From Candidatus Moraniibacteriota bacterium (GTDB lineage: Bacteria > Patescibacteriota > Minisyncoccia > Moranbacterales > UBA2206), in assembly GCA_030679995.1 (NCBI GenBank), contig JAUXSK010000016.1, forward strand, positions 1 to 50,108: a DNA stretch of 50,108 bases, given 5' to 3'. A model generated the notes under the pieces. It did no database searches. It was not told the origin of the DNA and saw nothing but the letters and a program-made list of their open reading frames with translations. Positions 15,255-35,415 of the stretch are shown one piece after another; within the stretch, counting starts at the first letter, position 1, and every line of letters begins with the position of its first letter. The translations under genes and the position numbers were made by a program.

Positions 15255-15300
15255 TATCGATAAAAAAAGCTCTCCACGCGGAGAGCTTTTTTTATCGATA
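15255..15300. terminator. Bidirectional terminator between convergent genes
   Basis: A perfect 21-bp stem with a 4-nt loop (core AAAGCTCTCC, loop acgc, GGAGAGCTTT) has seven A and seven T built into the stem. It ends the substrate-binding gene (+) and the SIS isomerase gene (-). Confidence 0.92.
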
Positions 15301-33225: not shown

Positions 33226-33753
33226 ATGAAGTATGAACTGTTCTATCTAGTCGCAGCTTCCAAGGAAGCTGAGCTGGAAGCGATCAAGGCCGGGGCGCAA
33301 GAAATCGTGACTGCCGAAGGCGGAGTTTTTGACGAAAAAGAAGTCGTCGAAAAAAGAAAATTGGCTTACCAGGTCAAGCATGAAACCCACGGGATTTATG
33401 TAGCACACCGCTTTGAGATTGAAGATCCGACCAAAATCCAAGCTATCACGCGCAAACTCAACCTCCACACCAGTATCTTACGCTCAGTCATCAGCCGAGC
33501 TTCGGAATTGCCGGAATTAAAAACCAAGGAGGAAAGGATCGGTGCAGCCAGCGCCGTATCGGAAAGAAAATCCAAGACGACCAAGGAGCCTGCCACCGCT
33601 CCGGCCAAACCAGCGGAATCCAAAACAGCCCCAATAGCAACGGCACCCGCTAAAACTGAGAAGGCCGAAGAGTTGATCGGGAAAAAACCCGTCCAAAAAG
33701 AAAAAACCACTGAAGATATCGACAAAAAATTAGAAGAAATCCTAAATATCTAA
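33226..33753 (+). CDS. rpsF: Small ribosomal subunit protein bS6 with C-terminal extension
   Basis: bS6 binds with bS18 to the platform of the 30S subunit. Residues 1-95 form the S6 domain (MKYELFYLVAASKEAE, VVEKRKLAYQVKHETHGIYVAHRFEIED, LNLHTSILRSVISR). A further 80 residues follow, rich in A, P, K, T and E (TAPAKPAESKTAPIATAPAK), ending in a short helix (DIDKKLEEILNI). At 175 residues it is far longer than the usual 95-135; such tails recur in CPR bS6. It heads the rpsF-ssb-rpsR order typical of bacteria. No Shine-Dalgarno (AAATAACCAAATG). Confidence 0.93.
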   Translation: MKYELFYLVAASKEAELEAIKAGAQEIVTAEGGVFDEKEVVEKRKLAYQVKHETHGIYVAHRFEIEDPTKIQAITRKLNLHTSILRSVISRASELPELKTKEERIGAASAVSERKSKTTKEPATAPAKPAESKTAPIATAPAKTEKAEELIGKKPVQKEKTTEDIDKKLEEILNI

Positions 33754-33755
33754 TA

Positions 33756-33857
33756 TCGGTTCGCAACTACGAAAATATTTCGAATCTTCGGACGGACTAT
33801 TTCAAAAATTTCGCAGATTCGCATTTCAATTAGTAGCTTCGCATCGGCATAAAACAA
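33756..33857 (+). repeat. Operon spacer element, copy 1 (rpsF-ssb)
   Basis: ATCGGTTCGCAACTACGAAA begins a roughly 100-bp element homologous along its length to the next two spacers of the operon. It contains CGAATCTTCGGA pairing imperfectly with TTCGCAGATTCG and ends close to the ssb ATG. Confidence 0.7.
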
Positions 33858-34340
33858 ATGAATCTTAACAAAGTGATGTTGGTCGGACGTTTGACCCGCG
33901 ACCCGGAAATCCGCAACACGACCGGCGGACAATCCGTCGCGACACTGAGCCTTGCCACCAACCGTTTTTGGAAAGACAAAAGCGGACAAAAACAAGACAA
34001 GACGGAATTTCACAATGTCGTCCTTTGGGGCAGGCTTGCCGAAATCGCCGGCCAATATCTGACCAAGGGCCAAGAAGCTTTCATCGAAGGCAGGATAGAA
34101 ACAAGGAAATACACGGCCAAGGACGGATCCGAACGGAGAGTTACCGAAGTGATCGCGGAAAATATGCAATTAGGTTCGCGCGCCGCCGGAACATCCAACG
34201 CGCCTGGATCATTCAACAAACCGGTCTCACCGCAACAGCGACCGCAAAATGACCGGCCGCAGCAAGCCGAAGAAGAAATCCCGACCATCAACCTTGATGA
34301 AGAGCAGGATGAGATCAGGCTTGAAGACGTACCCTTTTAA
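33858..34340 (+). CDS. ssb: Single-stranded DNA-binding protein
   Basis: SSB coats single-stranded DNA in replication, repair and recombination and recruits partners by its C-terminal tip. The 160-residue protein has an OB fold (MNLNKVMLVGRLTRDPEIR, ATLSLATNRFWKD, TEFHNVVLWGRLAEIAGQYL, KGQEAFIEGRIETRKY, TEVIAENMQLG). A Q/P-rich linker (SPQQRPQNDRPQQ) and the acidic tip EIRLEDVPF follow. Normal family length. The order with rpsF and rpsR is conserved in bacteria. No Shine-Dalgarno before the ATG (GGCATAAAACAAATG). Confidence 0.97.
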   Translation: MNLNKVMLVGRLTRDPEIRNTTGGQSVATLSLATNRFWKDKSGQKQDKTEFHNVVLWGRLAEIAGQYLTKGQEAFIEGRIETRKYTAKDGSERRVTEVIAENMQLGSRAAGTSNAPGSFNKPVSPQQRPQNDRPQQAEEEIPTINLDEEQDEIRLEDVPF

Positions 34341-34348
34341 ACACTAAC

Positions 34349-34447
34349 CCGGTTCGAAACTACGGACACATTTTGGATCTACGGACAATCATTTTTGAAA
34401 AATCCGTAAATCCGCCTCCGATCCGCAGTTCCATATCGGAAAAATTT
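34349..34447 (+). repeat. Operon spacer element, copy 2 (ssb-rpsR)
   Basis: CCGGTTCGAAACTACGGA begins the second copy. The hairpin arms here are GGATCTACGGA and TCCGTAAATCC. Relative to copy 3, two A-T pairs are replaced by G-C pairs. Confidence 0.7.
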
Positions 34448-34687
34448 ATGAAGATATACAACAACAACGAACCCACCAAAGTCGAAAAGAAAGTCTGCCA
34501 TTTCTGTGATATAAAAATGGATCAGATAGATTTTAAGGACGTTTACCTGATCAAACGCTTTACCAATTCCCAGGGCAAGATTTATCCGCCCAAAAGACAT
34601 GGCACCTGCACCAAACATCAAAGAGCGTTAGCGGCCGCTATCAAAAAAGCCCGTGTTATGGCGCTGGTACCATTCGTAGTAAAATAA
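34448..34687 (+). CDS. rpsR: Small ribosomal subunit protein bS18 (zinc-type)
   Basis: The 79-residue protein binds next to bS6 on the 30S platform. It reads MKIYNNNEPTKVEKKVCHFC, then DFKDVYLIKRFTNSQGKIYPP, then KRHGTCTKHQRALAAAIKKARVMALVPFV. The pair CHFC and CTKH makes a Cx2C...Cx2H set, so this looks like the zinc-binding 'C+' form of bS18. The frame is open upstream to 34373, but the upstream residues derive from the spacer repeat. The ATG at 34448 aligns with the family start. Confidence 0.93.
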   Translation: MKIYNNNEPTKVEKKVCHFCDIKMDQIDFKDVYLIKRFTNSQGKIYPPKRHGTCTKHQRALAAAIKKARVMALVPFVVK

Positions 34688-34790
34688 AATCCGATTCGAA
34701 ACTACGAAACATCGACGAATCTACGAACAAACAGTTTCGAAAATTTCGTAGATTCGCATTATCATTCGTAGATTCGCACCGGCAAAAAAT
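34688..34790 (+). repeat. Operon spacer element, copy 3 (rpsR-efp)
   Basis: This is the best-preserved copy. CCGATTCGAAACTACGAAA starts it, and CGAATCTACGAA pairs perfectly (12 bp) with TTCGTAGATTCG. ATTCGTAGATTCGCA is repeated once more just before the efp ATG. Confidence 0.75.
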
Positions 34791-35348
34791 ATGCTAAGCA
34801 TAAGCGATATCAAGACAGGCAAAAATATCGTCCATGAAAAAGCCCCTTATGCGGTCCTTTTCCATGAACAATCCAAAACCGGGCGCGCCGGATCAGTCCT
34901 GCGCACCAAACTCAAAAACCTGATCACCGGCGCAGTCCTGGAAAAAACTTTCCAAGGCGCCGACCAGGTCGAGGAAGCCGATATCCGGAAATCCAAAGCG
35001 CAATTCCTCTATCAGGAAGGCGACAATTACGCTTTTATGGATAATGGTTCTTACGAACAATTTTCCTTACCAAAGATTGTTTTAGGCTCAGACACCGATT
35101 ATCTGATTGAAGGCACGGAAATCATCGTTTTAAATTTCAATGATACGCCGATCAATATCGAACTTCCGGTCAAAGTGGTTTTAACAGTCGTGGAAGCTCC
35201 GCCAGGAATCAAAGGCAACACCGTTTCGACCGGTGGCAAAGTCGTCACCCTTGAAACCGGCCTCAAAGTGTCCGCTCCGCTTTTTGTGAACGAAGGCGAT
35301 AAGATAATCGTCAATACCGAAAGAGGAGAATATGTCGGCCGGGCATAA
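34791..35348 (+). CDS. efp: Elongation factor P
   Basis: EF-P enters the ribosomal E site and rescues stalling at proline runs. The 185-residue protein has the KOW-like domain I (MLSISDIKTGKNIVHEKAPYAV, SVLRTKLKNLITGAVLEKTF) and two OB domains (PVKVVLTVVEAPPGIKGNT, TLETGLKVSAPLFVNEGDKIIVNTERGEYVGR). The residue at the tip of the domain I loop, where E. coli has the modified lysine (PGKGQ), is arginine here: SKTGRAGS, Arg32 by my count. Arg32-type EF-P is rhamnosylated by EarP in some proteobacteria. No earP-like or epmA-like gene is seen in this window. It follows rpsR after the third spacer copy and ends at a terminator. Confidence 0.96.
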   Translation: MLSISDIKTGKNIVHEKAPYAVLFHEQSKTGRAGSVLRTKLKNLITGAVLEKTFQGADQVEEADIRKSKAQFLYQEGDNYAFMDNGSYEQFSLPKIVLGSDTDYLIEGTEIIVLNFNDTPINIELPVKVVLTVVEAPPGIKGNTVSTGGKVVTLETGLKVSAPLFVNEGDKIIVNTERGEYVGRA

Positions 35349-35389: not shown

Positions 35390-35415
35390 AAAAAGCCCGG
35401 ATAAGCGGGCTTTTT
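35390..35415. terminator. Bidirectional terminator between efp and the 48-residue gene
   Basis: AAAAAGCCCG, 6-nt loop, CGGGCTTTTT: a 10-bp stem between converging genes. Confidence 0.9.

Follow-up and report, generated by a model that had tools for sequence, protein, structure and literature searches.

The window analyzed here, 50,108 nucleotides of DNA from Candidatus Moraniibacteriota bacterium, is one contig of a draft genome of ~0.99 Mb (denoted G000 hereafter, with the relatives denoted G001 and so on). On the forward strand lie the genes rpsF (ribosomal protein S6, 33226–33753, named from sequence reading and synteny with the relatives), ssb (33858–34340), rpsR (ribosomal protein S18, 34448–34687) and efp (elongation factor P, 34791–35348), and each of the three gaps between them (33754–33857, 34341–34447 and 34688–34790) holds one ~95-nt copy of the same repeat, as had been claimed in the earlier note on this DNA. 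The copies, all in the forward orientation, span positions 33756–33850 (copy 1), 34349–34442 (copy 2) and 34691–34785 (copy 3), the limits being those of a covariance model. This model matches the three copies with E-values of 1e-18 to 1e-23, having been built from five copies in the genome that include these three. The consensus TTCGAAACTACGAA, given in the earlier note as the start of the element, is exact in copy 3 only. A terminator role was rejected because none of the three gaps contains a terminator-like site; the one convincing terminator, a hairpin with a T tail (35390–35415, forward strand), follows efp. Elsewhere in the window, a gap at 15255–15300 contains a perfect 21-nt inverted repeat with a 4-nt loop (TATCGATAAAAAAAGCTCTCC), by its context probably a terminator between converging genes.

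The element consists of two nested helices with 28 pairs, made of four copies of CGAATCTACGAA. The inner helix, CGAATCTACGAA paired with TTCGTAGATTCG (12 pairs), is the perfect hairpin previously noticed in copy 3, where 34716–34727 pairs with 34745–34756; the outer helix, CCGATTCGAAACTACGAA paired with TTCGTAGATTCGCATCGG (16 pairs), had been missed. Taken together, the two helices make the element a double palindrome of four related arms, in which one half contains a 12-mer twice in tandem, at a distance of ~19 nt, and the second half repeats these two units in inverted form beyond a short spacer. From the outer left through the inner left and inner right to the outer right, the arms are located at 33757–33773, 33781–33792, 33810–33821 and 33830–33847 in copy 1, at 34349–34366, 34374–34385, 34403–34414 and 34422–34439 in copy 2, and, with the inner arms already given, at 34691–34708 and 34765–34782 in copy 3. 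The termini, CCGAT...ATCGG, are inverted repeats such as those of MITEs. The fold z-scores of the RNA strand are –1.1, –4.1 and –5.6 for copies 1, 2 and 3, respectively, the first value indicating that copy 1 is decayed, the most so of the three.

The arms of the element covary. In copy 2, two A-T pairs are indeed replaced by G-C and one C-G by T-G, as had been reported; the same stem also contains a C-A mismatch, and the outer helix a third double change, neither of which had been mentioned. Among nine orthologous copies (the three gaps in three genomes), 6 pairs are changed on both sides, compared with a mean of 2.2 for shuffles and 0–2 for slid controls, so that the claimed covariation of the arms is real and agrees with the pair covariation expected of a structured cis-regulatory RNA. 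In copy 2, both left units have changed from CGAA to CGGA, and both right units show the complementary change (the CGGA/TCCG variant in all four). Given that the two left units are direct repeats and do not pair with each other, this fourfold recurrence is suggestive of copying between units; compensatory changes have been described to arise by template switching at hairpins (PMC8794818).

The element is by no means confined to this operon. Copies were gathered by search and by stretch. In G000, the covariance model detects further full copies before gatC (contig C4) and before another gene (C22) as well as a decayed copy (C26), and half copies are located before an iscU-like gene (C27), at C25 and C2, and in frame in polA (C21). 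Perfect arms are present in 28 of the 55 genomes searched, with up to 74 in one genome, and the full-element model finds matches in 19 of the 21 relatives searched; Moranbacteria are the largest named group among the matches from named genomes. The 93 distinct places, classified with a simple ORF caller, include 68 co-directional, 7 divergent and 5 convergent gaps, 9 overlaps with ORFs and 4 contig edges. In the co-directional gaps, the element usually starts a few bases from the stop codon and ends within ~10 bases of the next start, a tight packing that is predicted by tolerance in compact genomes. The matches in Chloroflexota, Latescibacterota and Bacteroidetes were set aside as mostly simple CGAATCTA-type tandem repeats, apparently of another architecture (eight loci inspected). 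A viral or phage origin was rejected as well: the tandem half has no exact match in viral contigs, and phage records contain no similar DNA. The element and 46 nt of its upstream flank are identical in contig C22 of G000 (L037:1–140) and contig C40 of G001 (L293), where the following gene differs; both contigs end beside the element. In addition, some copies contain a second, CCTGCCTGCCGGCAGGCAGG-like palindrome, located after ATTC in copies 1 and 2 of G001 (L058:1492–1609 and 2108–2222) and after TTTC in the copy at 29201 on contig C2 of G000, with similar copies in other loci.

Four of the 9 ORF overlaps are recognizable genes that carry full copies in frame. The insertion is located within the DNAG_N domain of DnaG, within the helicase N-terminal domain of UvrD/PcrA, within the IPPT domain of MiaA, and, in MutM, between the first two Pfam domains, N-terminal and H2TH; the full element is translated through as 33–37 added residues. 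DnaG of five congeners lacks the element at the insertion point, with other extra sequence there in two of the five, and so does MiaA of four other genomes. The DnaG site occupied by the element in G019 varies in length among the congeners, and G026 and G028 have other repeat-like sequences there (L352–L357). The linker of PolA contains the half copy in G000, G001 (decayed) and G003; at the same position, G006 has a different palindrome, GAGGACCGTCCTC. The protein insertions are mostly found at variable stretches.

The occupancy of the same operon varies among the relatives. G001, from the same genus, and G013, from another genus, have the element in all three gaps with similar junctions, and it occurs in two of the gaps in G029 and in one in G014. 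In G021, a congener of G013, the gaps contain no intact arms, only short remnant-like stretches; in G016, all the gaps, and in G023 two of the three, are empty or nearly so, and in G022 the rpsR-efp gap reads just 'taaAATATG', in contrast to a palindrome at this place in its congener G014. If the element were required, its loss in G021 and the empty gaps of other genomes would hardly be expected. Unrelated palindromes occupy these gaps in further genomes; at ten loci from different species, these are of the mutually unrelated types ACATG, TTAACATTTTAG, CACTAATCAACACGAAT and ACGAACTACGAAATTAACG. The operon was dismissed as a special hot spot: 46 of its 62 gaps of 45–300 nt in 30 genomes are structured (fold z ≤ –2), against 53 of 92 element-free co-directional gaps elsewhere in these genomes, so that the cluster is only mildly enriched.

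At the fourfold sites of the four host genes, G000 is 66% identical to G001 and 29.5% identical to G013 (saturation), and the element is ~80% identical in both comparisons; even at the unpaired positions of the element, the Jukes–Cantor distance between G000 and G013 is 0.39 vs 2.1 at fourfold sites. Within genomes, the copies are 93% identical in G013 and 70% in G000. Simple neutral decay of an ancient single insertion is ruled out by this identity in the face of saturation, which requires parallel insertion, purifying selection or renewal, the last by conversion or re-insertion. Of these, purifying selection acting on the element DNA can produce ~80% identity, and renewal would account for the conserved unpaired positions too.

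In the earlier note, the paired changes were interpreted as selection on RNA structure, with mRNA processing, translational start marking or a spreading element tolerated in gaps as the possible roles. A functional structure in the polycistronic mRNA, that is, a processing site (for RNase III, for example) or protection of gene ends, with the pairing kept by selection, would be compatible with the covariation among the orthologous copies, the prevalence of co-directional gaps, the strong folding of copies 2 and 3, and a slower change at paired than at unpaired positions. However, selection on the transcript would cause G-U pairs to be tolerated above A-C mismatches on the transcript strand, and the 67 co-directional copies show no such wobble preference, with 1684 Watson–Crick, 59 G-U and 61 A-C cells (binomial p = 0.93). 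By comparison, 27 tRNAs of these loci contain 14 G-U and 3 A-C in their acceptor and T stems (Fisher p = 0.017 for the difference, from element copies that are not fully independent and a small tRNA control). Conservation of place, as expected of a cis-regulatory RNA, is not seen either, given that the gaps are empty or filled with unrelated sequence in most genomes, and further evidence against this possibility comes from the copies within coding frames and in gaps of convergent or divergent orientation, from the half copies devoid of the hairpin, and from the Rfam search, in which no family exceeded its gathering score. There is therefore no support for selection on RNA structure, and a functional mRNA structure appears quite unlikely. 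Start marking fares no better because rpsF, too, lacks a Shine–Dalgarno-like sequence and yet has no element. The third role, a spreading element tolerated in gaps, is the one that fits best.

The symmetry of the G-U and A-C counts also fits a strand-neutral DNA structure, and the element might accordingly be under selection as a binding site or a cruciform for gyrase, a nucleoid protein or a repair protein, in line with the conservation of the sequence and the unpaired spacers across genera beyond synonymous saturation. Such a function is improbable, considering that some relatives have no intact arms at all or have empty gaps, that the copy number is extremely uneven (0 to 74 perfect arms), and that a positioned site is not expected to insert into proteins. 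A REP/REPIN-type element moved by a RAYT (a Y1/IS200-like transposase) of the same genomes is suggested by the dispersed palindromes composed of two inverted halves, the GTAG in the arms, and the Y1_Tnp genes detected in 34 of the 55 genomes. The linkage of the element to these genes was not borne out, however: none of the 29 Y1_Tnp loci scanned has an intact arm near the gene, and only one (L171) contains degenerate arms, at ~1.2 kb. In G001 and G023, elements are present and no Y1_Tnp was detected, and the only Y1_Tnp gene of G000, which is RAYT-like (C21:112235–112459, L035), has palindromes of a different type, GTCGAGGACCGTCCTCGAC, around and inside it. The latter palindrome type is also found in the PolA linker of G006. 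Furthermore, a REP is a 20–40-nt unit with a hairpin of its own, whereas the half of the element consists of two tandem direct units, the folding of which is weak (–2 to –5 kcal/mol) and does not produce the conserved helices. Movement by a RAYT is accordingly unlikely.

The best explanation, to which we assign a probability of roughly 70%, is that the spacers are copies of a mobile, selfish, non-coding palindromic repeat of the Rickettsia palindromic element (RPE) kind that is dispersed in Moranbacteria and other Patescibacteria. The likeness stems from three traits taken together: the palindrome of ~100 nt, its scattering over gaps, and its presence in frame in conserved proteins. Passages of PMC2229807 describe RPEs as palindromes of 105–146 bp, with terminal inverted arms, located between genes and in frame in conserved genes, with insertions in 19 reading frames. 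The present element, similarly, is a long stem-loop in the ~100–150-nt range with terminal inverted arms and occurs both in intergenic regions and in frame, in DnaG, MiaA, UvrD/PcrA and MutM (and as a half copy in PolA). No mobilizing enzyme for it was found among the Y1_Tnp genes checked in the draft genomes, and none is named for RPEs in those passages of PMC2229807. The differences are that the present element has another sequence, another host phylum, a four-unit nested architecture with two tandem units per half, and lone half copies. The element would work like an RPE, the analogy being one of form and placement. MITEs and other small repeats (RUP, Correia/NEMIS and ERIC) share with it the short length, the non-autonomous appearance, the terminal inverted repeats and the highly paired transcripts, and some of these small repeats fuse in frame with genes (PMC2229807). 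Visual inspection of the flanks revealed no target-site duplication, the empty sites being too diverged for an exact junction, and no cognate insertion sequence was found among the Y1_Tnp genes of the draft genomes.

Such an RPE-like element would be copied by machinery that acts in trans and would settle wherever the host tolerates it, in stop-to-start gaps and at in-frame sites in proteins. The arms would then probably stay paired because the DNA itself is rewritten, through template switching or conversion between the inverted arms, rather than because of selection on the mRNA. It is possible, albeit doubtful, that Patescibacteria carry an entire class of architecturally alike, sequence-unrelated palindromes (TTCGTAG, ACATG, CACTAATC, TTAACATTTTAG and others), with different species having different members in the same gaps and protein linkers. 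Their spread would then depend on machinery other than RAYTs and known insertion sequences. A word search of the open-access literature, with most subscription journals outside its scope, did not turn up any account of such elements from these bacteria.

Covariation is usually taken to prove functional RNA. In the present case, it is strong yet strand-symmetric, and the element is also found in proteins, so that this repeat family offers a natural case in which to test whether copying of DNA can create false covariation. The very small genomes of Patescibacteria are thought to be streamlined; under the RPE-like interpretation, these tiny genomes would nevertheless carry selfish palindromes in essential operons and in proteins of replication and repair, as is the case in Rickettsia.
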